A stretch of DNA of 64,000 nt, from assembly GCA_001692895.1 (NCBI GenBank), contig KV748216.1, positions 806,001-870,000 of the forward strand, given 5' to 3'. Below are positions 9,506 to 60,641 of the stretch, piece after piece (position 1 is the first letter of the stretch; every line of letters starts with the position of its first letter). Below the pieces are notes generated by a model. The model did not search any database. It was not told where the DNA came from and worked only from the letters and a program-made list of their open reading frames with translations. A program made the position numbers and the translations under genes. This DNA comes from Cenococcum geophilum 1.58 (taxonomy: Eukaryota; Ascomycota; Dothideomycetes; Gloniales; Gloniaceae).

Positions 9506-9929
9506 TATTATAGACGCTTTAAGAACAATATTATGACTACTTAGGGAAGAGTTAAAAGAAGCTAGTTAGCTAATATAAGCACGGTTTAAGATGGAGCCGA
9601 TAGAGCTATATAACGAAGAATAATAACTAAGGTTATATAATATAATCTATATAATCTATAGGATCTATATAATCTATAACAGAGTAAATAAAGTATACGT
9701 ATATTACGTATAAAGAGGATTTTATAGGAGTACGGTTATATATTTAAGGATCCTTAGTCCCTACCTAGATGGTTCCTTCCTTATAGTAATTCTTAGAATA
9801 CAATTAGAGTTAATCTATTAGGCAACCACTCTACCAGTTATTATTACATTGTTAACTTTAATTTATATTACCTATATACCTAGCCTATTAACGAGCCTAC
9901 CGTAGTACCTACTATAAGGTTCCGTTATA
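9506..9929 (+). repeat. G1 5' LTR (424 bp)
   Basis: Pairs with 18019-18442. It contains short internal repeats of TATATAATCTATA. Boundaries are set by the ATTTA duplication and by terminal complementarity TCCGTTA. Confidence 0.92.
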
Positions 9930-9974
9930 TAAATACTGCCTAGTTACGGTATTAAATATAAAAAGTTGAACAAT

Positions 9975-11340
9975 ATGCCACCAAAAGCACTAGCTACTAC
10001 GCCATTAACGGCGGCAACTATATTAAGATTAGGTAACGACACTAGTATAGTAGATACTAACTTACAGCAACCTATAGCGGTTAGATAGCTATAAGAGATA
10101 GTTAACTAGCTAATAGAAAATAATATGATATTAGAAAATAGGATTAATAGGATAGGAGTAGCAAAGATTAAGTTACTATTAATTAAAAGGTACTTAGGGG
10201 AAAGATTAAAACTTAAAGGATTCCTTATATAAATGCACTTTAAGGTTATATAAGAAGGGGTAAAGCTGCTAATATTTATAGATTAAATAGCGTATACGGG
10301 ACTATTCCTATTAGGAAGAGCACTTAAGTAGTTTAAGTTTTACCTTACGGAAATACCAGCGAATAGAATAATAACCACTAACTAAGAAGTATGGTTTATA
10401 TTTATAAGCTAGGAAGGATTTATAGAGTAACTTATATAAATATTTAGAGACCTAAAGACGGTAACTATAGCGGAAAGAAAACTCTAAAATATTATATAAT
10501 AAACCTTAGCAATTAAGTATATAATGTAGTTCTAGACGTTAGCAATATAAGTAAAGTAAAATAATAAGGCGTTTATAGTATAGTATAAATAGGGACTTAA
10601 GGCTAAAGTCTAGGATATAATTATCCTAATAAAAGATATAGAGACCCTATGGGATTTAATAGATTAAGTAATTAAGATTAACAATTAGATCTACTAAAGG
10701 AAATAGGCTAAAAGAGGTTAGAATAGAGTTCTATAGTTATATAAAACGCAGAGCACGTAATAACTAAAGCTAAGTTAGAAATTATAGTATAGCACAGAGC
10801 TAATAGACCTAAGTAGTACTAAAAAAGCCTATAAGAGATAGAGTAAAAAACTATAGAAACCTAGAGGATAAAGATTAAGTAATTAAAGGTCTAAGGAGTA
10901 GAGGCCGAATTAGGGATCTTAGTAGTAGAAGACGTTTAGGCAGACTCTATAATAGGAAAAATAGTTTAAAAAAGGAGCTTATATAAATTGTAGAAAATAA
11001 GGTTATTACGTTAGAGACTATAGAAGTAGTTAGAGTTACTATATAATAAAAGGGATAAGACTAATAGATGATATATATATATAAAGGGATAATAATATAC
11101 TACGAGGAATAAAAGAATATTTAATTAAAAGTTTTGCGTTTTATTATAATAACGCATGCTAAATTTATAAGGACGCTAAGTATAGCGTAAGCTATTAGCT
11201 ATAAGAGCCACATTTAGCGGAATATAAAGGAACTAATAAACTAGTTCGCAGATCGGATATTAAGGACAATAAATTTAACGTAGGCGAAATATTTTATAAC
11301 GATAAGGCGATAAAGGCGGCTTACTAGGAGTATATAGACC
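9975..11340 (+). pseudogene. G1 gag with CCHC zinc knuckle, RIP-degraded
   Basis: The start ATG is at 9975, 45 bp after the LTR, and opens MPPKALATTPLTAATILRLG. The homologous G3 and G4 frames begin at the same place (MPLKAATITLLTAATTLRLG in G3), which supports the start. A long helical Gag region follows. The zinc knuckle at 10989-11028 reads C-R-N-x-GYYVRDY, with the first Cys kept and other ligands changed to Tyr by RIP. In G4 the corresponding frame is continuous with what follows. In G1 it is cut by the 1-kb insert that begins at 11357. Confidence 0.8.
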
Positions 11341-11356
11341 TTAAAGATGTTATATA

Positions 11357-12377
11357 GTAGTAGTAGATTCTTTAATTAACGTCTGATACGGATCCTATCT
11401 AGGCCTACGCAGACTACTCCGTATATAAGGGGAAAGTAATATTAACAGGAAAAACCCCTTGCTATTAGGGGGGAGGAAAAACCCTAAAAGCCACCTTAGT
11501 AGGATGAAAAACCCCAAATTGCCATGCCTGTACGAGCAGCGGCCCTGCGGGTCTACAGCTTGTCCTCCTCCTTAGATGTTTCGAACTCCTTAAAAACCAC
11601 TGCTTCCTTCTCTGGCTTATCTAAAGCTAGGGTTCACTATGTCCTAGCTAGGCCTTGCCGATCGATTACTGTGTGCTTATAGTTGTGCCCCATATCTTAA
11701 CTACCCCTGTATGCTGTCTCTTGTTAACCATTGCCATATACGCCATGCCTCCCCCCCCCCTAAGGCCTATTAAAGGCGTAAGGGGGATTTATCCGTTCTA
11801 CTATCCTAAAACTAAAAAATAAAAGCGGGATATGTGTGTGTGTATCTGGGTATCTTTTATGCCTAGGCCCTAGTCACTAGGCCCTCTCTAAGGGCACCAC
11901 TCTATTAAGAGGAGATAAGGAAAACCGTACGGGGTTATCCAGCTGCCGCTTTTAGTAGTATTATAGTAGTATGGCGAGTGACCGCATGCTCCGCGGGCGA
12001 TCGCCCTAGGGGTTGGGAGGGGCCGTATATTTGCTCGTTCGTTCGTTCGTTCGCGTTTACCTATTCGTTAATATAAGGTCGTCAATGCCTTCCACTGGGG
12101 GACGGGGGGTGATATCGAATACTGTGCATCCATGTTGGATCGTACAGGTGCCCTGGATAGGAGAATGTAGTAGTCGTCGTACTGTAGAGAGCCAACAGTA
12201 GTGGTTTTTAAGATCTCACCATCTGAAAACCTTTTACCACCGCCCTTAACGCCTACAACCACCACAGGTCCTGTCCGCACGCTGTGCGACGTCTCTGCGT
12301 TGGCTCTGGATCTAAACTTCGAAGACCAGGTTCGTAGCCGTCACCACGTACAGGTGCAGAGTCCGATTTCGACGGCC
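11357..12377 (-). mobile_element. GC-normal insertion in G1 with a 15-bp target duplication; possibly a 5'-truncated LINE
   Basis: The 15-mer TAAAGATGTTATATA occurs at 11342-11356 and again at 12378-12392. Comparison with the uninterrupted region in G4 (near 54990-55070) shows that everything between is extra. Duplications of this length point to target-primed reverse transcription rather than LTR or cut-and-paste insertion. Read on the minus strand the insert ends in a short CTACTACTAC run, which could be its 3' tail. CpA is frequent and GC is near 50%, so RIP has hardly touched it. It also holds a 10-C run, a GT repeat, four TTCG units (near 12035-12052) and three GAAAAACCC copies (11447-11518). 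A 70-codon minus-strand ORF (12068-12280) has no recognisable family, so the element class is an inference. Confidence 0.6.
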
Positions 12378-15300
12378 TAAAGATGTTATATAAGAGGTAA
12401 AGGATAATTCCACTATAGAATAGGGAATATTAGTAGGGATTAAGACCCCACTAGATACGATGTCTATCGCTTTATAAGACGTAAGAGAAGTAGGATAGCG
12501 AGCTACTTTAGCACTTAATAAAGGCAAAAGGCTAAAAGCTTAAGATTCTTAAGACGAGATACGAGATAATTAAGACTCTTAAGATGAGATAAGGTAAGCT
12601 TAAGGACCTATAACAGATAATAACCAATAGAGTAGAGCAATAGCTTAGTTTAGCGATATATAAATAAGCTTAGGACGAAGTTTCCTAATAGTATAAGACT
12701 CTTAAGACGAGATAAGAACACTAGTAAAGCCTAGTTAAACTAAGGCTAGAGCTGAGCTTAAGATAGAAGTAAGCTTAGGATTAAGAATCCTATAGAACTA
12801 AGACTTTAAGAAATGAATAAGGACCATTAACAAAATTAGAGAATCTGCGGCATAAATAGTAACTAGATTAGGAGACAGATATATAGCCCTAGAGGACTTA
12901 CTAGGGGAATATAATGTTTAGCCTAAAGATCGAAATGTTAATACCAAGATTAAGAAGTAAGAAGACTTTAAAGATTTATCTATAAGATGCAAACTAAAAG
13001 AAACTATAGAAGAATTTAGGTAAAGAATTACCGCATAGCAAGAACAGAAACTAAATAAGAGATTTAGTATATTGGGGCGTATAAGGGACAGAGTATTAGT
13101 ATAAAGAATTACTAATAGGCCTAGGGTAGGCATACTAAGAGCTAAGTAGCTTACTAAACTAGAAAACAAATAGGATCTAGGGATCCCTACTAGGTTTAAA
13201 GAACGACATATAAAGGGCTATTATAATGTAGTAATAAGAAGATACTTCCTTATGGATAAGCTGTATATACTCTAGCAGCTATACTAAAAGTGGTATAGGC
13301 AACGATATAATGACGAGTAGGAAGATTTCTATATGTAGTTAGATAAACGAGTTATTTAAGACCACCCGATTATAGAAAAGGCCATAACTTATATTAAAGG
13401 ATCTAGAGGAATAATTAAAGGACTAGAGAAGTGAGAAATATATCTTAATACCTGCAAATAAAGTTATAATGTTTAGATTAATACGGCAAAGGTTTAAACT
13501 TAAAGATAAAGATAAGTTAAGAGTTAACCTAAAGCACCTAGCATACTATACGCTATTATAGATTGTATGCGTAGACGATATATATAAAATATATAAAAAT
13601 CTAAAGAAAAAGAATTGGAAATACCCTATAAGGATATATTAGACGCTAGATAAACGATAGTATAGAAATACTAAGTATATATATGGCTAGTATCTAATAA
13701 AAGTTTAAGAGTTAGGAGACTTAATATTTTAACCAGAAAGATTCCTTACGGAAGAATGCTTAAATAAATAATAGTAGTGGGAATACCTAGAGAATATATG
13801 TTTATAGTATATTAAAGACAAAAAGCAAACTAGGTATTAGCTAAAGAGTAAGCTAAGTATACTAGGATTAAGCAGCTAATAGTTAGGAAAAGTAAAGGCC
13901 TATAGAACCAGAGGGAGCTAGTAGTAGAGCCTTAGACCCTTAAAGGAATTTAAGGATAATACCTAAATTTATAAGCTAAATGGTAAAATTAATAGTTTAA
14001 AGCGTTAATAGATAGTAGAGCAATATAAAACTATATCTTACTAGTAATAGTTAAGAGAATAGGATTACCTTATAGATAGAAGGAGTAACTTTACCTATTA
14101 GTTATAATTTTAGGAGATCTAATAGCCTATAGAGGAGGGATTATTAACCTTAAAATAGGACCTATTTAAATAACTATTAAAGGAAGACAAATTAAGATGT
14201 CTTTTAATATCCTACTGTTAGGATAGAATAAGGTAGTATTAGAAATGCCTTAGTTATAGAAATACAATCTAAAGATCAATTAGATTACAGGTTAGGTTAA
14301 TATTAGAGATACTTAACGCTGTAAGATATAATAGTAAGCTAAGTTAGTATAGTACTAAGTTAGAGCGATATATAAAGAAACTAAGTAAGGCTTAAGTTAT
14401 ATACTAAAAAGATACCACAAGTATGGTAAAAAAACTATAGTTACTAGAAAGTAAAAAGCTATTAAAGTATATAGCATAGGACTATAAGATAGAGTTAGAA
14501 CTAGGAATAAGTCTAAGGTTCTTTTTAACCTATAAGCTTACTAAAGAAGAATTAAGAGCACTTAAAGAGTTTATCCAGAAAAACTTATAAAAGGGGTATA
14601 TTAGACTATCGCAATTATTAGTAGGTTATCTAGTACTATTTATACTAAAGAAGAACGGAAAACTTAGGTTATGCATTAACTACAGATAGTTAAACAGCAT
14701 TACTTAAAAGGATAGGTATTCTTTACCCTTAATTAGCGAAATCTAAGATAGAATAGGCAATGCGTAAATCTTTATAAAGATAGATCTAAGATAGGCGTAC
14801 TATTAGATTAGGATTAAGGAAGGTAACGAATAAAAGGCAGCCTTTAGGTTAAAGGAAGGACTGTATAAGCTATTAGTTATATAATTTAGGTTTATAAACG
14901 TACTAGCAACGTTCTAAAAGCGTATTAACAATATATTAGAAGAACACTTAGATAAATTTGTTATAGTATACCTCGATAATATTATTATCTACTTAATAAC
15001 TAAAGAAAAACACGGGGAATACGTTAAATAAGTCTTAAAGAGACTATAAGAAGAATAGATACTAGTAGTAATTAAAAAATGCGAGTTCTTTACTAGGAAG
15101 ACCGATTTTATTAGATTTATTATTAAACTAAGCTAACTTAGTATAGATCTAAAAAAGATCGAGGCTATAGTAAATTGGTAAGAACTAGAGAACGTAACGC
15201 AGTTAAGATTATTTTTAGGGTTTTGTAATTACTATAAAAGGTTTATAGCGTAATAGTTAAAGAATATTAAACCATTTATGTGGTTAATAAAGAAAGAGGA

Positions 15301-17330
15301 ACTATAGGTATAGGGAAAAGAATAGTAGGAATTGTTTAAAAGGATTAAAGATTTATTTACCTAGGAACTAGTTCTTAAGATTTATTAACTAAAATTAGAA
15401 ACGGTTATAAAAACGGATGTATTAGACTTTATACTAGGGGCATACTTTATATAGAAATATTAAGATAGATAGCACCTAATAGTATACTATAGTCGGAAGA
15501 TAATACTATTAGAGTTAAACTATAACATCTATAATAAGGAGTTATTAGGTATAGTTACAGCACTAAAGAAATAAAGAGCATTCTTATAAGTTATAGAAAA
15601 ACTATTTATAGTTAAAACGGATTATAAGAACTTAACGAGATTCTTAATAATAAAAGAACTTAACTAAAGGTAGGTTAGATAGGTAGAAATACTTACAGAA
15701 TACTATTTTAAGATTTAGTATACTAAAGGCACGGATAATATACGAGCAGACGCTCTAAGTTAAAAAGCTAAACTATAGAATAATAAAAAGCCATTAGGAG
15801 CTTTACTGCGAAAAGATATAGACGGATTAATTAGGTATAATTATCTAAAAATTATAGTAACTTAAGAGGGTAATGAACCGGAAAGAGTTTATAAGTCACT
15901 AGTAAGCTTTTAGGTATAAAGAATTTTAAAAATATAGCTAAAAGATCTGTAAACGGATATATATAAGAACTAAGAAGTAAAGTATATCCTAAGAAGCATA
16001 GCAGAGCAATTTATAGAAGATTTCTATGAGGGAATAACTTAAGAATATAATAGGGCCATAGGCTTAGTATTAAGACTCTAAAAGGAGTATATTATTAATA
16101 GAATCTAAAATATTATAAGAAAAATTATAAAAGAGTATCTAGATTACTAAAGAAATAAACTAATAAGGCATAAGCTATATAGAGGGCTATAACCTATTAA
16201 AATACTAGAGAGACTATAGGAGGTTATATTATAGGACTTTATTATTAAGTTACTAAAATTAANAGANCCTATTACNNGANNAGATTATAANNNNATCTTA
16301 GNAATAGTAGATAAGCTTATAAAGTAGGGATACTTTATAGCGTATACAGAAGAGATATTAGCAGAAAATATTGCTAGAATCTATATTAAAGAAGTATTTA
16401 TAAGATATAGAGCACTAAGTAAGATTATATCGGATAGAGATCTAAGATTTATAGTAGTATTTTAGGAAGTATTCTTAGTAGAGTAAGGAGTTAGAGCAGT
16501 AACTTCTATTATATATTATTTGCAAACAGACGGTTAAACGGAAAGACTAAATTAGATACTAGAACAGTATTTAAGGTACTATATTAATTACGCATAGAAT
16601 AATTAGGTATCGCTATTACTAGTTATATAGTTTATATATAATATAACATCTTAAGAAGGAATAGGTATATTACTATTTAAGGCAAATTATGGATATAAGC
16701 TAAGGACATTATTATTACTATAATAAGTAAAGAAAACGAGTAGTATAGCTAAGGAAAGAATAAAGACGTTAATAAATCTTTATATAGACCTTATAGAATT
16801 AGTAAAGAAAGTATAAAAGAGAATAAAAAGGTANTATAATGCTAAGAGATCTAAGGGACTAGATCTTAAGGAGGGAGATAAAGTATAGCTACTATACAAA
16901 AATTTTAAGAGTTAATAACTAAGTAAGAAGTTAGACTATGTTAGACTAGGACCTTTTAAAATTAAGTAGAGGATTTTATTAGTTATATTTAAGTTAAACC
17001 TACTAGTTAAGATAAAGATCTACCCTATATAGTATATTGTAATGCTAGAACCGGTATACGGGAATGTTAAACTACTAGTTTATAAAGTAGATATGTATAA
17101 AGGATAAGAAGAAGATAAATAGTAAGTTTTAAAGATTGTTAGTTATAAGGACATTAATAATAAAACATGGTATAAAGTTAAGTGGATAGGCTATACTAAG
17201 ACTACCTAGGAACTACTAGAAATTTAAAAAAAAAATGCTATAAGAAAGGTATAGGAGTATTAGGAGAAATTAGGTCAGGTAGAATTAATAAAAAAGGATT
17301 ATTAAAGAATAAGTTACCTAAGGGGGATCT
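12378..17330 (+). pseudogene. G1 pol (protease, RT, RNase H, integrase, chromodomain), RIP-degraded
   Basis: Protease: DSGA is altered to DSRA at 14011-14022. RT: FILKKNGKLRL near 14638, and catalytic YLDD changed to YLDN at 14969-14980. RNase H: about 15405-15700 with LELNYNIYNKELLGIVTALK. Integrase: LVIVDKLIK near 16302 and SDRDLRFIVVFQEVF near 16431-16475 carry catalytic Asp residues, and YYLQTDGQTERL follows near 16515. Chromodomain: NKTWYKVKWIGYTKT at about 17158-17205. These domains in this order define a chromovirus-type gypsy Pol. The frame is closed by dozens of Gln-to-stop changes. Ambiguous bases (N) sit at 16263-16302 and 16834. Confidence 0.88.
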
Positions 17331-18018
17331 AAGAAGAGCAGTTGCCGAACTACTTAAATCTGTTTTCTTCTCTATTAGGGAAGAATCCGTTTTTTTATTA
17401 CTAAGTTTCTATAAACCTTATTCTATAAGCTTCTACTTCTTAAAACGGACCTTTTTATAAACCTTCTTAAGACGGATTAACCGAGCGAACGTAGTAAGAT
17501 AAGATTTAAGGGCCTATTACTAAGTATTAGTAGCCTTCTATTTAGTATTATAAGAGTAATATAACTCCGCTAGAGTAATAGATAGTTTATTATCTAGCTA
17601 TATAGTAGTAAATTAAATATAAAACCCTAAGATAAATTAATTAAGGAACTAGACGACTATTAAAAGTAATAGGTTGTATATATTTAGTATTAGAAATAGA
17701 GCGAATATTATAGGATAAATAAATATTCGCTTTAGTATACTTTAAGTAAAATAATAGTTATTATAAAGATAGGTTCGCTAACGTAATATAAACTAATCCT
17801 TTTTTTAAACAGCGAGAATATGGAGATAGTATAATCTCACTAAGAGATAATATCGTAGCAATAGTGCGAGTATGACGGACGGTTAAAGAAGAAGAAATTG
17901 CTTTAGGTATAATAAGTAACAATATTAACTAAATTAATTAGACGGATATTATACCTCTAGTAAACAACTTAGAGATATTAGGAATCTTTAAGGATANAGA
18001 TAAAGAGAAGGGAGATAG
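17331..18018 (+). other. G1 region between chromodomain and 3' LTR
   Basis: About 690 bp with a counterpart in G3 and G4. Its end reads as an acidic C-terminal frame (IIPLVNNLEILGIFKD) that runs into the LTR, suggesting the polyprotein or a small extra ORF extended this far in the ancestor. One N lies at 17997. Confidence 0.5.
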
Positions 18019-18442
18019 TATTACGGACGCTTTAAGAACAATATTATAACTACTTAGGGAAGAGTTGGAAGAAGTTAGTTAGCTAATATAAGTATAGTCT
18101 AGAATAGAGCCGATAGAGCTATATAACAAAGAATAGTAACTAAGGTTATATAATGTAATCTATATAATTTATAAGATCTATATAATCCGTAATAGAGTAA
18201 ATAAAGTACACGTATATTATATATAAGGAGGATTTTATAGGAGTACGGTTATATATTTAAAGACCCTTAGTCCCTACCTAGATAGTTCCTTCCTTATAGT
18301 AATTCTTAGAATATAATTAGAGTTAATTTATTAGGCAACTACTCCACTAGTTATTATTACGTTATTAACTTTAATTTATATTACCTATATACCTAGCCTA
18401 TTAACGAGCTTACCTTAATACCTTCTATAAGGTTCCGTTACA
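18019..18442 (+). repeat. G1 3' LTR (424 bp)
   Basis: Same length as the 5' LTR and ends TTCCGTTACA, followed by the ATTTA target copy at 18443-18447. Confidence 0.92.
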
Positions 18443-28383: not shown

Positions 28384-28559
28384 TAACTATATTAGTACGC
28401 GATTGGGGCCATACAAAACTGGGCTAGCAGCCGCAAATCCTACCCATATACTGTTCTAATATAGTGCTACCTACCTAGCCTACCTATATAGTAGTAGGAA
28501 TTCGTATTTATTCATATGGTTAATACTACGGCCTATAAGCTATTTAATAAGGCGCCTAT

Positions 28560-28904
28560 TATTAGCGACTTGGTCAATCAAGGCACGAGCATGGCAAGAA
28601 GGATGCATGCAAACCTGTACGATTGGATTGTCTATTAACGAAGATCCAAAGCTAGAGAAAAGGAAAGGAGAAAATGACAGGCAGCGCCACTCGGAGTTTT
28701 ATACAATCTTCTAGTCACGTGACTACAGCTGTCTGCCAAGTTCTGCCAAGTTCTGCCGTTTTCTGCCAGTGCCGTAACACCACAGCGCGCGTCTCCTGCT
28801 CAGCTCCCTCGTAGCTAATTCGCTCTTTCTGCGACTTACGTCAACGCATTGCCTCGCTACAGCTCGACCACCATCACCTCATCTTCCAAAGCTTTCGGTC
28901 CCGA
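28560..28904 (+). promoter_or_regulatory. Upstream region of the 28905 gene with 10-bp tandem repeats and a CACGTG palindrome
   Basis: GC-normal, non-RIP sequence begins about here. GTCACGTGAC (28714-28723) is a 10-bp palindrome containing an E-box core, the type bound by fungal bHLH factors. Immediately downstream, 28731-28770 holds four direct 10-bp units around TTCTGCCAAG. A pyrimidine-rich stretch precedes the ATG, as is common in fungal promoters. Transcription start and binding proteins are unknown. Confidence 0.5.
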
Positions 28905-29658
28905 ATGGCCAAGAAGGGTCTCCTGGAAGCCATCGGCGTCGGCGCTGCCTTAAGCGCAGTCGCTGGAGCATACAAGTTTTCCGAATTCGCTGTTCGTGCT
29001 AAAAAGCTCCACGAAGTCGCGTCTGAGAACGAAGTTTTCGTCCGCCTAGTCCGGCATGTCCAGATCGACCTTGCGGAAACGGAGCGCTTACTCTACCTTC
29101 CATCCGTCAAATTCGCCCTCTCCAACAGTCCAGACAAGCTAGCTTGGATCAGAAGAACCATCTCCGACACGAAGAATGCGCTCTATCAGATCAGCCGTTA
29201 TACTGGGGGAGTGAGTGGGGACCTCGAGCATGGGCATCATGTCGGAATCAGGCATAGGTTTCGGTGGGTCCTGAACGACTACGAAAAATTGGTGCACCGG
29301 AGGATGGAGCTCGCCATGTGCCATCAGAGCCTCACACAAGTCCTCGGTTTTCTGTCCACACTGGAACCTTTGGCATGCTGTGAAGAATCTCTAGCAATGG
29401 AAACACCGCGCCAGACACCGGAGAATATCGTAGACTATAATAGCTTCGAGAGCTCTAGGAAGAGGCAAGGCGGTCTTCGGGAGGAGAAATACGAGGCAGA
29501 AGTAAGCTGGAATAGCTAAAATATTGTCTGGCTTTGCCTTGGTCGTCTACGAGTTGCTGACTTAATTTATCTAGGTATGGCGCGAGGACAGAAGCTTCGA
29601 CCTACCAAATCCGAAAACCTTGCCTATCCGAGCAAATTGGCCAATTAGCCGGCTTTGA
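28905..29658 (+). CDS. Intact two-exon gene, 226-aa protein of unknown function with NLR-N-domain-like start
   Basis: Exon 1 is 28905-29501, a 73-bp intron is 29502-29574, and exon 2 is 29575-29658. The intron has donor GTAAGC, branch site GCTGAC (29556-29561) and acceptor CTAG. Without splicing the frame stops at 29519; with splicing it gains 27 residues starting VWREDRSFDLPNPKTLP, which look coded. Residues 5-22 are Gly/Ala-rich and hydrophobic (GLLEAIGVGAALSAVAGAYK). Next comes a long helical region with DLAETERLL, then WIRRTISDTKNALYQI, RFRWVLNDYEKLV and ELAMCHQSLTQVLGFLSTLE. The 'AIG-G--L' start followed by amphipathic helices loosely resembles N-terminal domains of fungal STAND/NLR proteins (SesA/HeLo-like), but no NTPase or repeat domain follows. 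It could equally belong to an uncharacterised fungal helical family. Codon use is normal and no RIP damage is seen. Confidence 0.85.
29502..29574 (+). other. Intron of the 28905 gene
   Basis: GTAAGC donor, GCTGAC branch sequence 14 nt before the TAG acceptor, and a length of 73 bp, all typical of fungal introns. Phase 0. Splicing is inferred, not observed. Confidence 0.75.
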
Positions 29659-29792
29659 ACCAAAATGCTTGCTTTTAACACATTTGGGCCTATGTAATAT
29701 CCTTCATTTATAGTTACACCGCCTTTTCTTCAATTCCTCACTTTAGCCGCCAGCCTCTTTTGAATCTCGTCCATATCCCAGTACCTGGCTGA

Positions 29793-30296
29793 TTAGGCCT
29801 TTGGAACTTGATATTGCAGGGTATCTCCGATATCTTCATCGCTGCCTTGGAGCCCAATAGCCGCGAGTAGTGCTTTTTTCTGTTTCATGCTTTGCAGTAC
29901 GGATGTGTCCTTGAAGAGAGCAGTCAACTCACGTAAAAGACATAATCCATGATGTAGGTTCTTCTACCAGAGTTTAAAGAAACCAGCAGTCAACTCCTAG
30001 TTTTGTCGAACAAGTGATTGCCCCCCCTTGATTACCTTTCGATATTCGCTTTTTTTTTCATTACAGTTGCCGTGCCATGAGTCCCGATCACCATACCCTA
30101 TCTTTCCCTCGCCAAACGTCTCAGGCAATTTGTTCCACCTAAAAGACTGACGACATAATGCAATGTATCTACCGCATCTGCCGCGATTCTTGTTCAATGT
30201 GCTTGTACCTGGTATCTCGCAGGTTTTCCAGGCCCCGACCACCGACCGACGCAGGTCTCCTAGCACAATGCTACAAACACCGGTTACCTGTGGCAT
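29793..30296 (-). CDS. Doubtful minus-strand gene, probably spliced; function unknown
   Basis: Two coding-like blocks lie on the minus strand of the GC-normal island. The 5' block starts at ATG 30296 and is open for 99 codons to 29997 (MPQVTGVCSIVLGDLRRSVV at the start, five Cys, basic). The 3' block ends at 29793 and reads TSVLQSMKQKKALLAAIGLQ, then GSDEDIGDTLQYQVPKA. An intron between them is plausible: donor GTAATC or GTATGG near 30040-30075, acceptor TTCAAG or GGTAG near 29915-29970, and GTTGAC branch-like sites. No combination is decisive and no homology is recognised. A repeated GAGTTGACTGCT occurs at about 29923 and 29986. It may be non-coding. Confidence 0.3.
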
Positions 30297-30571
30297 GATT
30301 GTGATTGACGGGTTATTGGCATTTTAGGACACCATAGTGGTAGGCTGGGAAGCGAGGTGGCATGTCGCTTATAGGATAATGCAGAGTTTAATAGGGTGTC
30401 AATGGGGTGAGCAGCGTAGCGTCCTAGTGGTAGTTTATCTGCAGCGGTGTTTGTAGAGAAATGTGGTGTGAAGAGTATTTATGTTTGGGAAATTACTTTG
30501 TTTGAATTTGTTTCGAAGAACTTAGCGATACAATATATACGAACTATTAATCTCCTGCCCACATAATAGTA

Positions 30572-30775
30572 ACGTGTTCCACAACTCAGTGAGCCACACC
30601 AGTCAGTGAGCCACCCCAAAAACTACCAAAAATCGGAAAAACTGCACCTTGATACCTCGATAACGGCTTAATAATAAATTCCGAAATTTTATAATTAGCC
30701 TTTTGTGCCTACATTAAGACTCTTAATAAAATTCTAGCGTAATAAGCCTGGCCGTTATTAAGATATTAGGGTTTT
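30572..30775. mobile_element. Left part of inverted-repeat element A (interrupted by G2)
   Basis: Starts ACGTGTTCCAC after a TA (30570-30571). Its partner end GTGGAACACGT closes at 38672, followed by TA. Inside the terminal repeat, CAGTGAGCCAC is repeated twice. Arms of about 200 bp can pair with each other. This part keeps its CpA sites, whereas the right arm is RIP-mutated. Together with 38452-38672 it forms a 425-bp element with a TA duplication, Tc1/mariner-like in its target. No transposase is encoded. Confidence 0.8.
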
Positions 30776-39378: not shown

Positions 39379-39804
39379 TGTAACGGAACCTTATAGCAGG
39401 AACTACAATAGGCTCGTTATTAGGCTAGGTATATAGGAAATGCAAGTATAGTAGTTAACAATATAATAATAACTGGTGGAGTAGTTGCCTAATAGATTAA
39501 CTCTAATTATATTCTAAGAATTACTATAAGAAAGGAACTATCTAGGTAGGGATTAAGGGTCCTTAAATACACAACTATACTCCTATAAAATCCTTCTTAT
39601 ATGTAATATATATATACTCTATCTACTCTATTACGGATTATATAGATTATATAGATTATATAGATTACGTTACGTAACTNTAGTTACTATTCCTCGTTAT
39701 ATAGCTCTATTAGCTCTATTCTAGACTATACTTATATTAACTAACTAGCTTCTTCTATCTCTTCTCCAAGTAGTTATAATATTGTACTTAAAGCGTCCGT
39801 AACA
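39379..39804 (-). repeat. G3 3' LTR (426 bp)
   Basis: Plus-strand ends TGTAACGGAACC and GCGTCCGTAACA, intact and complementary at their tips. Contains repeated ATTATATAG units near 39640-39670. Confidence 0.93.
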
Positions 39805-40499
39805 CTATCTCCCTCCTCTTTATCTTTGTCCTTAAAGATTCTAAATATCTCTAAGTTATTTACTAGAGGTATAATATCCATTTAATTAATTTAGTTAATA
39901 TTATTACTTATTATACCTAAAGCAATTTCTTCTTCCTTAACTACTTGTCGTACTTACACTATTACTACGATATTATCTCTTAGTAAGATTATACCGTCTC
40001 TATATTCTCGCTGTTTAAAAGAGGGGTTAGTCTATATTACGTTGGCGAACCCATCTTTATAATAACTATCCTCTTACTTAAAGTACACTAAAGCAAATAT
40101 TTATTTATCCTATAATATTCGCTCCGTCTCTAATGCTAAATATATATAACCTATTACTCTTAATAGTTATCTAGTTCCCTAATTAATTTATTTTAGGGTC
40201 TTATATTTAATCTACTACTACGCGGCTAGATAATAAACAATCTATTACTTTTACTAAATTACGCCGTTCTTAGGACGCTAAATAGGAGGCTGCTAATACT
40301 TAGTAACAGGCCCTTAAGTCTTATCTTACAGCGTCTACTTAGTTAATCCGTCTTAAGAAAGTATATAAGAAGGTCTGTTTTAAAGAGTAAAAACTTATAG
40401 AATAGGGTCTATAGGAACTTAATAATAAAAAAACAGATTCTCTTTTAATAGAGAAGGAAACAGATCTAAATAGTTTGGTAACTGCTCTTCTTAGGTCCC

Positions 40500-43400
40500 C
40501 CTTAGGTAACTTATTCTTTAGCGATCCTTCTTTATTAATACTACCTAACCTAATTTCTTCTAATACTCCTATACCTTTCCTATAGCATTTTTTAAATTCT
40601 CTAGTAGTTTCTAGGTAGTCTTAATATAGCCTATCTACTTAACCTTATACTATATTTTATTGTTAATGTCCTTATAATTAATAATCTTTAAAATTTGCTA
40701 TTTATCTTCTTCTTATCCTTTATACATGTCTGCTTTATAAACTAGTGGCTTAATATTCCTATATACTAGCTCTAGTATCGCGATATACTATATAGGGTAA
40801 ATCTTTATTTTAGCTAGTAGGTTTAACTTAGACGTAACTAGTGAAATCCTTTACTTAATTTTAAAAGGTCCTAGTCTAATATAGTCTAACTTCTTACTTA
40901 GTTGTTAACTCTTGAAATTTTTATATAGTAGCTATACTTTATCTCCCTCCTTAAGATCTAGTCCCTTAAATCTCTTAGCATTATAGTACTTTTTATTCTC
41001 TTTTATACTTTCTTTACTAATTCCGTAAGGTCTATATAAAAATTTATTAATGTCTTTATTCTTTCTTTTACTATACTACTTATTTTCTTCGCTTGCTATA
41101 ATAATAACAATATTCTTAGCTTATATCCGTAATTCGCCTTAAATAGTAATATACCTATTCCTTCTTAAGGTGTTATATTATATATAAACTATATAACTAG
41201 TAATAGCGATACCTAATTATTCTATACGTAATTAATATAATGCCTTAGATACTGCTCTAGTGTCTAGTTTAATCTTTTTATTTAACCGTCTATCTACGGA
41301 TAATATACGGTAGAAGTTACTACTCAAACTCCTTATTCCGCTAAGAATACCTCCTAAAATACTATTACGAATCTTAAATCTCTATCTAATATAATCTTAC
41401 TTAGTGCTCTATACCTTATAAACACTTCTTTAATATAGATTCTAGCGATATCTTCTACTAATATCTCTTCTATATATGCTATAAAGTATCTCTACTTTAT
41501 AAGCTTATCTACTATTACTAAGATTACGTTATAATCTTGTCCGGTAATAGGGTCTTTTAACTTTAATAACTTAATAATAAAGTCCTATAATATAACCTCC
41601 TATAGTCTCTCTAGTATTTTAATAGGTTATAGCCCTCTATATAGCTTATACCTTATTAGTTTATTTCTTTAGCAATCTAGATATTCCTTTATAACTTTTC
41701 GCGCTAAGCCCTAAATTCCATTAATAATATACTTCTCCTAAAGTCTTAACACTAAGCCTATAGCCCTATTATGTCCTTAAGTTATTCCCTTATAAAAATC
41801 TTCTATAAATTATTCTGCTATACTTCTTAGGATATACTTTACTTCTCGATTTTCGTATATTTCTATCTATAGATCTTCTAGCTATACTTTTAGAATTCTT
41901 TACTCCTAAAAGCTCTTTAGTAACTTATAAACTCTTTCTAGTTCTTCCTAAGTTACTATAATCTTTAGATAATTATACCTAATCAATCCGTCTATATCCT
42001 TTTATAGTAAAGCCCCTAATAGCTTCTCTTTATTTTATAGTTTAGCTTTACGGCTTAGAGCATCTACCTATATATTATCTATACCCTTAGTATACTAAAT
42101 CTTAAAATAGTATTCTATAAGCCTACCTATCTAACCTATCTTTAGTTAAGTTCCTTTATTATTAGGAATCCTATTAGGTTCTTATAATCCGTTTTAACTA
42201 TAAATAGTTTCTTTATACTTTATAAGAATGCTCTCTATTTCTTTAGTGCTATAACTATACCTAATAACTCCTTATTATAGATGTTATAGTTTAACTCTAG
42301 TGGTATTATTTTCCGACTATTATATGCTACTAAGTGCCATCTATTCTAATATTTCTATATAAAGCACGCCCCTAGTATATAGTCTAATATATCTATTTCT
42401 ATAACCGTTTCTAGTCCTAGTTAATATATTTTAAGAACTGGCTCCTAGGTAAATAACTCCTTAATTTTCTTAAAGAGTTCTTACTATCCCTCTCCCTATA
42501 CCTATAGTTCTTCTTTCTTCGTTAATTACGTAAGTAGCTTAATATCCTTTAACTACTGCGCTATAAACCTTCTACAGTAATTGCAAACCCCTAAAAACAA
42601 TCTTAACTATATAACGTTCTCTAGTTCTTACCAATTCACTATAGCCTTAATCTTCTTTAGATCTATACTAAGTTAGCCTAGTTTAATAATAAATTTAACG
42701 AAATCGGTCTTCCTAGTAAAGAACTCGTATTTCTTAATTACTACTAGCATTTATTCTTCCTATAGTCTTTTTAAAACCTATTTAATATATTCCCTATATT
42801 CTTCCTTAGTTATTAAGTAGATAATAATATTATTAAGGTATACTATAACAAATTTATCTAAGTGTTCCCCTAATATATTATTAATACGCTTCTAAAATGT
42901 CGCTAGTGCGTTTATAAGCCCGAATTGCATAACTAATAGTTTATATAGTCCTTCCTTTAACCTAAAGGCTGCCTTTTATTTATCGCCTTCCTTAATCCTA
43001 ATCTAATAGTACGCCTATCTTAGATCTTTATAAAGATTTACGTATTACCTATTTTATCTTAGATTTCGCTAATTAAGGGTAAAGGATACTTATCCTTCCT
43101 AGTAATACTATTTAACTATCTATAGTTAATATACAGCCTTAGTTTACTATACTTCTTTAGTATAAACAGTATTGGATAACCCGCTAATAACTATAATAGT
43201 CTAATATATCCCTTTTATAGATTTTCCTAGACAAACTCTTTTAATACTCTACCTTCTTCTTTAGTAAGCTTATAGATTGGAAAAAACCTTAGACTTATTC
43301 ATAGTTCTAATTCTATCTTATAATCCTATACTATATACTTTAACAGCTTTTTACTTTTTAGTAACTATAGTTTCTTGCCGTACTTATAGTATCTCCTTAG

Positions 43401-46400
43401 TATATAACTTAAGCCTTACTTAGTCTCTTTATATATTGCTCCGACTTAGTACTATACTATTTTAGCTTATTATCGCATCTTATAGTATTAAGTATCTTTA
43501 ATATTAACCTAACCTGTAACCCAATTAATCTTTAGATTGTATTCCTATAACTAAGGCATTCCTAATACTGCCTTATTATTCCTTAATAGTAATATATTAA
43601 AAGACATCTTAATTTATCTCCCTTTAATGGTTAACTAAATAGGTCCTATTTTAAGGTTAATAATACCTCCTCTATAGGCTATCGGATCTCCTAAAATCGT
43701 TACTAATAGGTAAAGTTACTCCTTTTGTCTATATAGTAATCCTATTCTTTTAACTACTGCTAGTAAGATATAGTTCCTTATTACTCTACTATCTATTAAT
43801 GCCTTAAACTGTTAATCTTACTATTTAACTTATAAATTTAGGTGCTATCCTTAAATTCCTTTAAGGGTCTAAGGCTCTACTACTAGCTCCCTCTAGTCCT
43901 ATAGGCCTCTACTTTTCCTAACTATTAGCTACTTAATCCTATTTATACTTAGTCCAACTTAGGCCAATACTTAGTTTACTTTTTATCTTTAATATACTAT
44001 AGACACGTATTCTCTAGGCATTCCCACTACTATTATCTATCTAGGCATTTTTCTATAAGGAATCTTCCTAGCTAAAGTATTAAGTCTCCTAACTCCTAAA
44101 CTTCTACTAGATACTAACTATATATATACTTAGCGTTTCTATACCTTTATTCTTCCGCTAACCAATATATTCTTATAGGGTACTTTTAGTACTTATCCTT
44201 AGGTGCTTTATATATATTGCACATATCATCTATATATACGATCTACGATAGCGTATAGTATGCTTAGTATTTTAAGTCAACTCTTAACTTATCTTCGTGC
44301 TTAAGTTTAAACCTTTCTTATATTGATCTAAACGTTGTAACTTTATTTATAGGTACTAAGATACGTCTTTTACTTCTCTAGTCCTCTAAACGCTCCTTTA
44401 GATCTTTTAATATTATAATTAAGGCTCCTTTAATATAATTTATAGCCTTTTCCGTAATCGGGTAGTCTTAGATAACTTTTTCATCTAACTATATATAGAA
44501 ATCTTCCCACTTATTGTTGTGCCTTTATCTATACTACTTTTAGTATAGCTACTAAAGTATATACGGCTTGTCCGTAAGGAAGTATCTTCTTATTACTACG
44601 TTATAACAGCCCTTTATATATCGTTCCTTAAACCTAGTAGGAATCTCTAGATCCTCTTCTTATTCTAGTTTAGTAAGCTACTTAGCTCTTAGTATACCTG
44701 CCCTAAGCCTATTAGTAATTCTTTATACTAGTGCTCTGTCCCTTATACGTCCTAATATACTAGATCTTTTATCTAGTTTCTGTTCTTGCTATAAGGTAAT
44801 TCTCGCTCTAAACTCCTCTATAGTTTCTTTCTTTTTATATCTTGCAAGTAGATCCTTAAAGTCTACTTACTTCTTAATCTTGGTATTAACTTTTTAATCT
44901 TTAGGCTAAATACTATATTCCCTTAGTAAGTCCTCTAGGTCTATATATCTATCTTCTAGTCTAGTTGCTATTTATACCGCAGATTCTCTAATCTTATTAA
45001 TGGTCCTTATTTATATTTTAAATTCTTAGTTCTATAGGATTCTTAATCCTAAGCTTACTTCTTGCTTAAGCTTTACTCCAGCCTTAGTCTAACTAGGCTT
45101 ACTTAGTATTCTTATCTCATCTTAAGAGTCTTAAATCTTACTTATCTTATCTTAAGAGTCTTATACCTATAGGAACTTCTATCCTAAGCTTATTTGTATA
45201 TCTTTAAACTAAGCTACTACTCTACTCTACTGGTTATCGTCCATTATAGGTCCCTAAGCTTACCTTATCTCGTCTTAAGAATCTTAGTCCTTTAGCCTTT
45301 TACCTTTATTAAGTGCTAAAGTGGTTTACTATCCTACTTCTCTTACGTCTTATAAAGCAATAGACATCGTATCTAGTAGGGTTTTAATCCCTACTAATAT
45401 TCCCTGTTCTATAGTAGAATTATCCTCTACCTCTTATATAATATCTTTAAGGTCTACTCACTCCTAATAAGCGGCCCTTATCGCCTTATCATTATAAAAT
45501 GTTTCGCCTTTATTAAATTTATTATCCTTAATATCCAATCTACGAACTAGTTTATTAGTTCCTTTATATTCCGCTAAATATAGCTCTTATAGCTAATAGC
45601 TTACGCTATACTTAGCGTCCTTATAAATTCGGCATATATTATTATAACAAAACACAAAACTTCTAATTAAACACTCTTTTATTCCTCGCAGTATACTATC
45701 GTCCCTCTATAAGTATATATCTTCTACTATTAGTCTAGTTCCCTTTATTATATAGTAACTCTAACTATCTTTATAATCCCTCGCGAAGTAACCCTATTTT
45801 CCGCAATTTATATAAGCTCCTTCTCTAAACTATTAACTTTATTATAGAGTCCGCCTAAATATCTTCTACTACTAAGATCCCTAGTTTAGCCTCTACTCCT
45901 TAGTCCTATAATCACTAGATCCTTAACCTCTAAGTTTTTATAATTTCTTACTCTATCTCTTATAGGCCTCTTTAGTACTACTTAGGTCTATTAGCTCTAC
46001 GCTATACCATAGTTTCTAACTTAGCTTTAGTTGTTATGTACTCTACGCCTTATATAACTATAGAACTNTATCCTAACCTCTCTTAGCCTATTCCCTTTAG
46101 TAGATCTAATTATTAATCTTAATTACTTAATCTATTAAATCTCTTAGGGCATCCGCATCTTCTATTAGAATAATTACGTCCTAGACTTTAGCCTTAAGTC
46201 CCTATTTATACTATGCTATAAGCGCCCTATTATTCTACTTAACTTATATTGCTAATATCTGGAACTACGTTATATACTTAATTGCTAAGGTCCGTTACGT
46301 AATATCTTAGAGTTTTCTTTTCGCCGTAGTTACTACCTCTAGGTCTCTAAATATTTATATAAGTCGTTTTATAAATCCATTCTAGCTTAAGAACATAAAC

Positions 46401-46819
46401 TATACCTCTTAGTTTATAGTCGTTATTCTGTTTACCTAGATTTCTATAAAGTAAGGCTTAAACTATTTAAGTGCTCTTCCTATTAGGAACAATCCTACGT
46501 ACGCTATTTAATCCATAGGTATTGCCAGCTTAGCTTCTTCCTGCGTAACCTTAAAGTGCATTTACGTAAGGAATCCTTTAAGCTTTAATCTCTCTCCTAA
46601 GTATCTTTTAATTAATAATAACTTAACCTTTACTACGCCTATCCTGTTAATCCTATTTTCTAACATTATATTATTTTCTGTTAACTAGTTAACTATCTCT
46701 TATAACTATCCGACCGTTATAGGTTACTATAAGTTAGTATCTGCCATACTAGTGTCACCTCCTAACCTCAAAGTAGTTGCCGCCGTCAATAGCGTTATAG
46801 TGGCTGCTTTTAGTGGCAT
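40500..46819 (-). pseudogene. G3 gag-pol, RIP-degraded
   Basis: Gag starts at ATG 46819 (minus) with MPLKAATITLLTAATTLRLG, 46 bp after the LTR, parallel to G1. The zinc knuckle lies near 45790-45830 with AYINCGKQGYF-like sequence. The RT catalytic motif YLNNIIIYL (ancestral YLDD) is near 42825-42850, and the chromodomain is near 40610-40690. Domain order and spacing match G1 without the 1-kb insert. All Gln/Trp codons are prone to stops. Confidence 0.86.
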
Positions 46820-46864
46820 ATTATTCGACTTTCTATATTTAATACCGTAACTAGGTAGTAATTA

Positions 46865-47290
46865 TATAACGGAACCTTATAGCAGGAACTACAATAGGCT
46901 CATTATTAGGCTAGGTATATAGGAAATGTAAGTATAGTAGTTAACAATATAATAATAACTGATAGAGTGGTTGCCTAATAGATTAACTCTAATTATATTC
47001 TAAGAATTACTATAAGGAAGGAACTATCTAAGTAGGGATTAAGGGTCCTTAAATACACAACCGTACTCCTATAAAATCCTTCTCGTACGTAATATATGTA
47101 TGCTCTATCTACTCTATTACGGATTATACAGATTATATAGATTATATAGATTATATTACGTAACCTTAGTTACCATTCCTTATTATATAGCTCTATCGGC
47201 TCTATCCTAGACCGTGCTTATATTAACTAACTAGCTTCTTCCGTCTCTTCTCTAAGTAGTTATAATATCGTACTTAAAGCGTCCGTAATA
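46865..47290 (-). repeat. G3 5' LTR (426 bp)
   Basis: Same length as 39379-39804, with RIP-altered tips (TATAACGG and GTCCGTAATA). Followed by the CTTAT target copy. Confidence 0.93.
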
Positions 47291-47466
47291 CTTATCTATA
47301 ATTAATTACTTTTTTATAATAGGAATACTACTTCCTTATAAGTTACGCGCTTCTAGTATTTAGGTAAACACTAAGGCGTCCTTATTCTCCCCACTCTCCG
47401 ATATTAACTCCCTTTTCCCCTTAATACCGTCCTCTATATCTTAGTCGTCTTAAAGGTAAGTAACTA

Positions 47467-53190: not shown

Positions 53191-53195
53191 CTTAG

Positions 53196-53616
53196 TATTA
53201 CGGACCTTATATTAACAGTAGTTAAACTACTAAGGAGAGATATAAACAGACTAGTGGTAGAAGTATAGGAGGTGCTAAAAGTAGTTAAACTATAGGATAA
53301 GGGGTAGCTAAGTTATATAATAAGTTACGAGAGAAGATCTGTTAATCTATTAGATCTATAAGATCTGCTTATATACCTTACGTACCTTATATACTTTATA
53401 TACTTAGTATTTCTTAGGCGCAGTATTATATATTTAAAGGACTACAGTCCTTACCTAGATAGTTCTCTTCTTTATAGTAAATCTTAGAATATAATTAGAG
53501 TTAATCTATTAGGCAACTACTCTACTAGTTATTATTACGTTATTAACTTTTTATTTACCTATATCCCCAGCCTATTAATAAGTTTACCGTAGTTTTTACT
53601 ATAAGGCTTTATTATA
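53196..53616 (+). repeat. G4 LTR 1 (421 bp)
   Basis: Starts TATTACGGACC (ancestral TGTTACGGACC) and ends AAGGCTTTATTATA. Followed 41 bp later by the gag ATG. Confidence 0.9.
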
Positions 53617-53657
53617 TATTTACTACTAGGGTTATAGTATTAATAAAGTTAAATAAT

Positions 53658-56600
53658 ATGCTATTAAAAGTAGTAGTTATAACGGCGTCTATAGTAGCAA
53701 CTACCTTAGGGTTAAGTAATAACACTAGTATAGCAGATACTAACTTATAACTAGTTACGGTTAGGCACTTATAAGTAATAGTTAATTAATAGATAATAAT
53801 AGGATACTTAAAGAACGAATTAACGGGATAGGAGTAGTAAAGATTAAGCTATTATCCATTAAGCGATTTTTAGGGGAGAAGTTAAAACTTAAAGGATTCC
53901 TTATATAAACATACTTTAAGGTTATATAAGAGGGAGTAAAGCTAGTAACAGCTATAGACTAAATATCCTATGTAGAACTATTCCTAACGGGAAGGGCACT
54001 TAAGTAGTTTAAGCCTTATTTTACGGAGATATAGGAAAATAGTATAGTAACTACTAACTAAAAAGTATAATATATGTTTGCTAGTTAGAATAGGTTTATA
54101 GAGCATTTAATGTAAATATTTAGAGACTTAAAGGCAACTACTATAGTAAAAAGAAAGCTTTAAAACCTAGTATAACAAACCTTAGTAATTAAGTATATAA
54201 TATAGTTTTAAATATTAGTAATATAGGTTAAATGGAATAATAAAGCGCTTATAGTATAATATAAATAGGGACTTAAAGCGAAAGTCTAGGACGTAATTAT
54301 CTTAATAAAAGATATAGATACCCTAAAAAAACTAATTAACTAAGCTATTAAGATTAATAATAGGATCTACTAGAGGGAATAAACTAAGAAGGGTTAAAAT
54401 AGAGTTTTATAGTTATATAAGGCGTAAAGTACGTAATAATAAAGTTAAAGTTAGAAACTATAGTATAGTATAGACCTAATAGATCTAAGCAGTACTAAAG
54501 AATTTAGAAAGTAAAATAAGAAGCTATAGAAACCTAAAGGTTAAGGATTAAGTAATTATAGGACTAAAGAATAGAGGCTAAACTAGGGATCTTAGTAGTA
54601 GAAGACGTTTAGGCGGACTCTATAGTAAGAAAAATGGTTTAAAAAAGGAGCTTATATAAATTACAAAAAATAAAGTTATTTTATTAAAGACTATAAAAGT
54701 AGTTAGAGTTATTATATAGTAAAAGGAATAAGACTAGCGGGCAATATATATATATAAAGGGATAATAATATACTATAAGGAATAAAAGAATATTTAATTA
54801 AGAGTTTTGCGTTTTATTATAATAACATATACTAAATTTATAAGGACGCTAAGTATAGTGTAAGTTATTAGCTATAGAAGCTAAAAATACTAAAGTTTAA
54901 AGGAACTAATAAACTATCTTATAGATTAGATATTAAGGACGATAAATTTAATATAGGTAAAGTATTTAATAATAATAGGGTAATAAAGATAGCTTACTAG
55001 GAGCATATAAACCTTAAAGAAGTTATAATAAAAGTAAAGACTAAAACCACTATAGAATAAGGGTTAGTAATAGAAATTATAACACTATTAGATACAGCAG
55101 CTATTACTTTATAAAATAGAAGAAAAAATGTTTTAAAAAAAGGATTAAGTAAATAGATAACTACTAGTGCTAATTTACTACTTAATAAAGGCAAAAATCT
55201 ATAGGCTTAAGATTCTTAAAAAGCGATAAGATATATTTAAGGACCTATAATAAACAAAACTAATAGAGTAGAGTAATAGCTTAGTTTAGTAGTATATAAA
55301 TAAGCTTAGGACGAAGTTTTCTAAAGGTATAAGATTCTTAAGACAAGATAAGAATACTATAAAAGCTTAGTTAGATTAAGGCTAGAGCTAAGCTTAAGAA
55401 AGAAATAAGCTTAGGATTAAGAGTTTTATAAAACTAAAAATTTAATATATAAATAAGGACTATTAAGAAAATTAATACTAAGATTAAAAAGTAAGAGGAC
55501 TTTAAGGATTTACTTATAAGGTAAAAAATAAAAGAAACTATAAAGGAATTTAGATAGAAAATCCTTATATAGTAAGAATAGAAACTAGACTAGAGATTTA
55601 GTATACTAGGTTATATAAGGGATAGAGTACCTATATAAAGAATAACTAATAGGCCTAAGATAGGCACGCTAAGAGTAAAATAGCTTACTAAACTAGAATA
55701 AGAAGAGGATTTAAAAATCCTAATTAGGTTTAAAAAGCAATATATAAAAGGCTATTATAATATAGTAATAAGAAGATACTTCCTTACGGATAAGCTATAT
55801 ATACTCTAATAGCTATACTAAAAGTAGTATAAATAGCGATATAATAATAAGTAGGAAAATTTATATATATGGTTAAATAAGCGAGTTATTTAAGACTACC
55901 CTATTATGGAAAAAGCTATAAATTATATTAAGGGAGCCTTAATTATAATATCTAGGGATCTAGAGGAATAATTAGAGGACTAGAAAAGTAAAAGGCGAAT
56001 TTTAGTACTTATAAATAAAGTTATAACGTTTAGATTAATATAATAAAGGTTTAAACTTAAGGATAAAGATAAGTTAAGAGTTAACCTAAAGCACCTAGCG
56101 TATTATACGCTATTATAGATAATATATATAAGATATATAAGAATCTAAAAAAAGAGTTAGAAGTACCCTATAAGGATATATTAGGCGCTAAATAAGTAAT
56201 AGTATAAAAATACTAGGTATATACGGATAGTATTTAATAGAAGTTTAGGAGTTAGGAGACTTAATACTTTAACTAGAAAGATTTCTTATAGAAGAATACC
56301 TTAATGAATAATAGTAGTAGGAATACCTAGAGAATATATATCTATAGTATATTAAAGATAAAAAGTAAACTAGGTATTAGCTAAAGAGCAAGCTAAGTAT
56401 AATAGGATTAAGTAGCTAATAATTAAAAAAAGTAGAGGCTTATAGAATTAGAGGGAGCTAGTAGTAAAACCTTAGACCCTTAAAGGAATTTAAGGACAAT
56501 ACCTAAATTTATAAGTTAATTAGTAAAATTAATAGTTTAAAGCGCTAATAGACGGTAAAGTAATAAGAAACTATATCTTACTAAGAGTAGTTAAGAAAAT

Positions 56601-59600: not shown

Positions 59601-59900
59601 TTAAGTTAAACCTATAGCTAAAATAAAGATCCACCCTATATAATATATTATAATGCTAAAGCCAATATATAGGAATATTAAGCCATTAATTTACGAAGTA
59701 GATACGTATAGAGGGTAAGAAGAAAACAAATAGTAAGTTTTAAAGATTATTAGTTATAAGGATGTTAATAATAAAATATAGTATAAGTTTAAGTAGATAG
59801 GCTATAATAAGACTACCTAGGAGCTACTATAGAACTTAAAAAACGCTATAGAAAAGGTATAGGAGTATTAGAAGAAACCGGGTTAGGTAATATTAAGAAG
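53658..59900 (+). pseudogene. G4 gag-pol, RIP-degraded and split by a solo LTR
   Basis: The gag ATG is at 53658, with the family opening MLLKVVVITASIVATTLGLS. The minus ORF 54997-55194 is antisense noise. RT: FILKKNGKLRLYINYR*LNS near 57178, with the catalytic YLDD-type motif at 57490-57505 immediately interrupted by the 227-bp solo LTR (57508-57734). RNase H is about 58140-58420, the integrase core about 58900-59170, and the chromodomain about 59755-59840. Domain order equals G1 and G3. Stops are of RIP type. Confidence 0.86.
57508..57734 (+). mobile_element. Solo LTR (227 bp), not RIP-mutated, in the G4 reverse transcriptase
   Basis: Starts TGTCGGTATTACCC and ends CATACAGACA, with perfect 5-bp duplication ATTAT on each side (57503-57507, 57735-57739). 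Removing it restores an alignment with G1 around the RT catalytic site without length change. GC is about 48% and CpA sites are intact, in contrast to the flanking RT. No full copy of this family is in the window. It must have inserted as a complete LTR element and recombined to a solo LTR, or been mobilised in trans. Confidence 0.85.
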
Positions 59901-60641
59901 GAGCTAAAAATAAAGGGATTAGTTAAGGGTAATAGACGAGCCGGATTATTTAAGGGATCCACCACTAGTATATTAGTTGTTTCCGCCTTATCTTAATTAG
60001 AATCCTTTTTAGCCTCCTTAGCCTTAAGCTTACGAAGACCATACTTTACTAGGCGGTACTCTTTAAAGCGCACCTTTTTATAACCCTTTTTAAGACGGAT
60101 TAACTAAGCAAAAGTAGTCTAATAAAGCTTAAATACGCGACACTAGGCTTCTAAGAGACGAGTAGACTTTTTAAAGAAACGATGGAGTTTATTATAAGCC
60201 GTAATAAGAGAAGCCTTAAGCTTCTTAGCCTTAGATTAAACACGGAACCCTATAGCAGATTAAATAAGGAAGTTAGAGACTTTAAAGACTAATAAAACGC
60301 GTATACTTAGCGTTAGAAACGGATTAAACATTATAAGACAACCTTATATTTAATTTCGTACACTTAGTATAGAAAGAAGGTTAGCAATTAGATGGAGCCG
60401 CGATTATAATATATACTAACTTCTTCTCTATATAATAGGAATAAGACGGTATAACTTTACTAAAAGAAAGGATCTTAAGCACCACGTAATTACAATAATT
60501 AGTAGATAAGGAAGAAGTTGCCTTAGGTATAATAAATAATAATAAAGGTTATTAAATTAAAGACGGGAATGCCATACCTCTAATAGACGACTTAGAGATA
60601 TAAGATATCTTTAAGGACGAAGATAAAGAGGAGAGGGATAG

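Follow-up and report, generated by a model that had tools for sequence, protein, structure and literature searches.

The DNA examined here, referred to throughout as the window, is a stretch of 64,000 nucleotides from the ectomycorrhizal fungus Cenococcum geophilum 1.58 (PMC5816826), taken from contig KV748216.1 (C41:806001-870000). The genome comprises 162 contigs that total 177,193,698 bases. The window contains one gene-like island, at 28.5-30.5 kb, surrounded by AT-rich repeats that have been altered by repeat-induced point mutation (RIP). The island carries a gene on the forward strand that, judged by its sequence and that of its relatives, is probably a functional two-exon gene encoding a 226-residue helical-bundle protein of the Dothideomycetes, imported into peroxisomes by means of a tag encoded in the last exon. 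The parts of the gene are as follows:

28905..29501, forward strand: exon 1, 199 codons, encoding a predicted helical bundle (approximately residues 4-164) and a linker
29502..29574, forward strand: intron of 73 nt in phase 0, GTAAGC...CTAG
29557-29561, forward strand: branch-point-like CTGAC, beginning 18 nt from the 3' end of the intron
29575..29658, forward strand: exon 2, 27 codons plus TGA, encoding a conserved tail with the end WPISRL
29647..29655, forward strand: codons for the C-terminal Ser-Arg-Leu, a tripeptide of the peroxisomal targeting signal type 1 (PTS1) kind

If the intron is kept, translation adds five residues and then reaches a stop codon at 29517-29519. The resulting open reading frame (ORF), 28905-29519, is the only one of at least 120 aa in the six frames of the window, as the original prediction had claimed; the longest stop-to-stop frame, of 234 codons, is likewise found at the gene, followed by frames of 111 and 108 codons, and in the approximately 900 bp downstream of the coding sequence the longest is a minus-strand frame of 108 codons. 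The intron and the 27-residue second exon, both proposed beforehand, are well supported by comparison with relatives, to which the predicted spliced protein aligns across exon 2. Two of these match it over the full length and are themselves exactly 226 aa long, namely P0001 (96% identity) and P0002 from Glonium stellatum (82%). P0001 originates from a 993-nt Joint Genome Institute (JGI) contig and, because gene calls on such metagenome contigs are normally unspliced, it probably represents a transcript; the alternative is a lineage that has no intron at this position.

The protein belongs to a family that extends well beyond Cenococcum. A profile search recovered at least 107 relatives and a second search, seeded with the nearer relatives, at least 33, which are defined here as the family; the union of the two comprises 131 proteins, made up of the 33 family members, an artefact (P0006, see below) and 97 others. 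The motif EPLACC is present in 19 of the 33, whilst the 97 others are mostly sister families that lack it, with P0007 as the exception. All eight named members are from Dothideomycetes, of the orders Gloniales, Mytilinidiales, Aulographales and Pleosporales (P0124 by name only, as Pleosporales sp.). The proteins of Glonium stellatum (AOQ84DRAFT_382037), Mytilinidion resinicola (BDZ99DRAFT_498742), Rhizodiscina lignyota (NA57DRAFT_55079) and Setomelanomma holmii (EK21DRAFT_54631) share with the window protein both the N-terminal bundle region and a C-terminal SR[LM]. The other NCBI models of the family differ in being 290-491 aa long, mostly with a long repetitive middle rich in Arg and Glu that is missing from the 226-residue proteins of Cenococcum and Glonium. 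On the evidence of these alignments, the gene product is conserved and not obviously fast-evolving. It had been suggested that the gene is under selection, and the conservation seen with Glonium stellatum (82% identity, equal length) fits purifying selection, through which the gene may have persisted; the accompanying idea of a fast-evolving or conflict-related gene, framed by analogy with plant pathogens, finds no support here, in a symbiont and in a conserved family with a PTS1-like C-terminus.

The feature that adds most to the description of this family is a tag of the peroxisomal type, carried on the last exon and kept among its members. The Ser-Arg-Leu end of the spliced product fits the pattern [SAC][KRH]L given for a PTS1 predictor in PMC5309816, and SRL is the PTS1 of the Woronin body protein Hex1 as described in PMC7762394. 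An SR[LM] end is found in 12 of the 33 family members and in none of the 97 other relatives. Many of these entries are unspliced metagenome frames, so that the NCBI gene models provide the fairer comparison, and here the end is present in six of the eight family models (SRL in P0002, P0005 and P0059; SRM in P0124, P0127 and P0129) as against 0 of 16 others. A seventh model, P0131, terminates after V-S, the dipeptide that results when a GTAAGT-type splice donor is read in phase 0. Nine of the 21 members without SR[LM] end no more than 22 residues from an [EDT]VS; in P0004 and P0049 this sequence lies further in, and the C-terminal part of the remaining ten shows nothing of the kind. In the alignment, P0125, P0126, P0130 and P0131 enter EVS at the place where P0124, P0127 and P0129 extend to the SRM tail, and the V-S endings of the nine members look like readings into an unspliced last intron.

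Structure prediction with AlphaFold2 gave a helical bundle for exon 1 of the window gene (mean predicted local distance difference test score, pLDDT, 77.7) and, for P0001 (mean pLDDT 72.6), helices at residues 6-36, 38-63, 66-73, 76-108 and 115-153 together with a tail whose pLDDT of 45-54 suggests disorder without proving it. The N-terminal stretch is moderately hydrophobic (Kyte-Doolittle mean 1.47). No Pfam family matched the window protein at E<=1, and for the window protein, ten relatives and a 74-sequence alignment taken together Pfam returned weak, scattered matches (best E 0.0022), none of them consistent across the family. Sequence searches of the PDB yielded no significant match, Foldseek found none for the exon 1 model at E<=0.001, and VIA-align placed the similarity of both models at the level of a generic helical bundle; the structural matches listed included no HeLo, MLKL or Hex1 chain, which excludes nothing. 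PADLOC reported nothing for three proteins, and no description of the family was found among the literature matches listed. Given the lack of an enzyme family and the hydrophobic N-terminal stretch, a structural or membrane-associated role for the bundle would be our guess.

One of the nearest parallels for a protein of this kind is Hex1, a peroxisome-directed fungal protein of similar size with an SRL end (PMC7762394). The two differ in that the window gene product is modelled as all-helical, and in that the alternatively spliced intron of Hex1 is described as lying near the N-terminus (PMC7762394), whereas here the intron precedes the C-terminal tag. No match in Pfam, nor any significant sequence match to a solved structure, pointed to Hex1, with which no direct comparison was made.

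The island is not confined to this locus. The original prediction supposed that the gene had been spared because it is single-copy, which is contradicted by a second copy on contig C9:

28789..30524, forward strand: duplicated segment, with a second copy of 1.74 kb at C9:1083704-1085447

Searched with the protein, the genome yields the window gene, the C9 copy (79% identity, eight in-frame stops) and two distant paralogs with open frames, on contigs C4 (44%) and C10 (31%). Across 1731 aligned sites of the duplicated segment, C or G in the window faces T or A in C9 at 255, and the reverse is seen at 38. By context, the changed sites amount to 133 of 218 CpA, 65 of 187 CpG, 25 of 200 CpC and 32 of 238 CpT, so that the C9 copy bears the signature of a RIP-mutated duplicate, an excess of C-to-T and G-to-A changes falling mainly on CpA. 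Eight premature stops interrupt its exon 1, and no GT remains at the splice donor; the first 250 bases or so of the coding part are nearly unmutated, after which heavy mutation sets in abruptly. The window copy has no comparable excess and appears to have undergone no RIP or hardly any. The surroundings of the C9 copy are AT-rich as well, and in each of the two copies homology stops some 115 bp before the ATG. An NCBI model of C. geophilum, V2W45_1520956 (P0006, 140 aa), is put together from five pieces identical to parts of the frames of the C9 copy, with the stops skipped, and is an annotation artefact laid over the RIP-mutated sequence.

The gene of the island is conserved and, of the pair struck by RIP, it is the copy that was spared. 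RIP is a premeiotic process that usually strikes both members of a pair. The escape of one copy would be accounted for if the mutated C9 copy and the unmutated window copy came from different meioses and were joined by crossing; most simply, the intact window copy would be an unmutated allele that crossing has united with a mutated duplicate.

The composition of the window was scanned in 500-bp bins, using GC content and a CpA index defined as (CpA+TpG)/(ApC+GpT). The four bins at 28501-30500 have a GC content of 0.44-0.53 and an index of 1.16-1.36, confirming the return to normal values that had been noted at the island; in the remaining 124 bins the median GC is 0.301 and the median index 0.33, with a 99th percentile of 0.81. 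That normal composition occurs 'only here' holds with respect to gene-like islands, of which this is the sole one in the window, but not for composition as such, as the bin 11501-12000 (GC 0.48, index 0.98), part of a dispersed repeat, also departs from its surroundings. The RIP-mutated AT-rich stretch runs on C41 from approximately 709 to 871 kb (about 160 kb); from 871 kb onwards, some 35 kb past the gene on its right, composition is normal for about 45 kb. Of the 528 bins that cover the 264 kb analysed, 415 fall below an index of 0.8. Whilst the gene is alone in the window, patches of such composition are not unique, because others on C41 pass a cut of index >=0.9 and GC >=0.42 (758.5-759.5, 817.5, 935.5 and 957.5-958.5 kb). 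Those at 935.5 and 957.5-958.5 kb hold frames that are only short or repetitive. C41:957001-958500 is GC-normal, and its coding-like frames are built of short-unit repeats. The C. geophilum genome has been described as bipartite and 75% transposable elements (PMC5816826), and AT-rich, repeat-rich compartments are therefore normal for this fungus.

A number of observations weigh against the reading of a conserved, peroxisome-addressed gene that RIP has spared. With regard to the tail, SR[LM] is absent from 21 of the 33 family members as recorded, and 12 of these 21 do not have the V-S ending either. The NCBI model P0116 ends in RTHL, and P0007, which bears EPLACC, is without SR[LM]. In P0041, P0111, P0112 and P0121 an [EDT]VS lies in a frame that runs on to SR[LM], meaning that a stop-free intron has been read through or that there is no intron, so that an intron at that place is only putative. 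The broader pattern [SAPC][KRH][LMI] gives 12 of 33 against 1 of 97, and all of these tail counts are descriptive, as relatedness among the sequences makes them non-independent and the pattern SR[LM] was picked once the tails had been viewed. With regard to RIP, the reverse differences between the two copies lean towards CpA (10 of 93, versus 28 of 539 elsewhere; Fisher p 0.055), for which reason the window copy may itself have been slightly affected. The exon 1 differences that are not of RIP type comprise eight synonymous and nine nonsynonymous changes and give no sign of constraint, although one of the two copies is dead. Finally, crossing in C. geophilum is a suggestion only, in the form of cryptic recombination (PMC5816826).

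Even so, a functional gene whose product is directed to peroxisomes remains the preferred reading. Under it, the gene would be transcribed and spliced to give a small protein, a bundle whose PTS1 is exposed, the SRL tripeptide would act as a working signal, and PEX5 would import the spliced protein into peroxisomes or into Woronin bodies derived from them; a transcript that retained the intron would yield a 204-aa form without the tag. Import, expression and any switch between the two forms are deduced from the DNA and remain conditional. That retention of the last intron is regulated, so that a spliced peroxisomal protein alternates with an unspliced cytosolic or membrane-bound one, is a tentative possibility. 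It would accord with the in-frame stop after five intron codons, with the intron-like boundary that several relatives have at the aligned place, and with the alternatively spliced PTS1 isoforms known from Ustilago and Aspergillus (PMC3798809). In that precedent, fungal GAPDH and PGK, splicing decides whether a PTS1 stands at the C-terminus (PMC3798809), but those proteins are glycolytic enzymes, and for the window gene the main form is apparently the one with the tag. Regulated retention does not follow from a conserved intron position, and gene callers that do not splice would produce unspliced metagenome frames in any case.

The other explanations are less probable still. A protein of cell death or conflict, in which a HeLo- or MLKL-like bundle attacks membranes as part of allorecognition whilst the SRL end has no significance, seems unlikely: HeLo and HeLo-like (PF17111) domains form an N-terminal all-helical bundle (PMC9815663), as is predicted here, but the window product has a PTS1-like end and no Pfam match, with no family found for it at E<=1 and no HeLo or HeLo-like profile among the 74 aligned sequences at E<=0.1. 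A combination of the two ideas is quite improbable. According to it, an unrecognised family imported into peroxisomes or Woronin bodies stands near membrane-active death domains; splicing confines its membrane-active bundle to peroxisomes, and retention of the conserved phase-0 intron, for instance under stress or hyphal damage, leaves an untagged form that remains in the cytosol or acts at the septum. It is more doubtful again that the window copy is a dying gene, an unexpressed relic barely touched by RIP. It does lie between repeats, the nearest of which ends 125 bp before the ATG, but its frame is open and its splice sites are intact, as opposed to eight stops in the sibling copy, and a 96% identical spliced form exists that is probably a transcript. 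Least credible of all is the view first taken of the locus, that its AT-rich compartment harbours a fast-evolving gene of the effector type. The gene does lie in a repeat-rich stretch, and genes for small secreted proteins of C. geophilum are also located in gene-sparse regions (PMC5816826); against this stand the 82% identity and equal length in another genus, a family of 33 whose eight named members are all Dothideomycetes of four orders, and the PTS1-like end.

If the preferred reading of a peroxisomal protein is correct, a short last exon directs to peroxisomes the members of a conserved fungal family that has no match in Pfam, and exons of this kind can escape gene callers. A public gene model, V2W45_1520956, is at the same time explained by the mutated copy. 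Since RIP is premeiotic, a pair of which one copy is destroyed and the other spared provides indirect evidence of a past sexual cycle. Such a natural pair has been found here in C. geophilum, whose sexual recombination, described as cryptic, is a suggestion only (PMC5816826).

The surroundings of the gene had been described as repeats, and this is borne out by terminal direct repeats and by cross-matches within the window. The elements and repeats located are:

9506..18440: RIP-mutated element, putatively of long terminal repeat (LTR) type, with terminal direct repeats at 9506-9927 and 18019-18440 (90.8% identical)
28562..28779: dispersed repeat of approximately 218 bp that borders the island on the left and stops 125 bp before the ATG
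30569..30774: short repeat of approximately 205 bp at the right edge of the island, with many genomic copies
39381..47297: RIP-mutated element, putatively of LTR type, related to 9506-18440 in the opposite orientation, with terminal repeats 92.1% identical
53193-62369: nested set of RIP-mutated elements with terminal direct repeats

The assignment of the elements at 9506..18440 and 39381..47297 to the LTR class is suggested by their terminal repeats alone. The island is edged by the two short dispersed repeats, with the core of about 1.74 kb (28789-30524) between them. For the left one, scoring 40 of 1968 candidates gave at least 39 other complete or partial copies with 78-87% identity and, because it ends 125 bp before the ATG, the upstream region of the gene is largely derived from repeat; its composition is near normal. 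Copies of the right one often occur as inverted pairs spaced by roughly 60-100 bp. The element at 9506-18440 contains an insertion of 1.02 kb (11357-12377; GC 0.48 in its first full bin), which is itself a dispersed repeat with at least 40 near-full-length copies including itself (40 of 892 candidates scored), the others being 87-95% identical to the window copy. Long as this repeat is, and similar as its copies are, RIP seems to have altered it less than the sequence around it. In three parts of the window GC skew is strong in most bins, at approximately +0.2 to +0.4 in 10000-18000 and 54000-60000 and -0.2 to -0.4 in 40000-47000, and its sign tracks the relative orientation of related elements, although RIP is expected on both strands.
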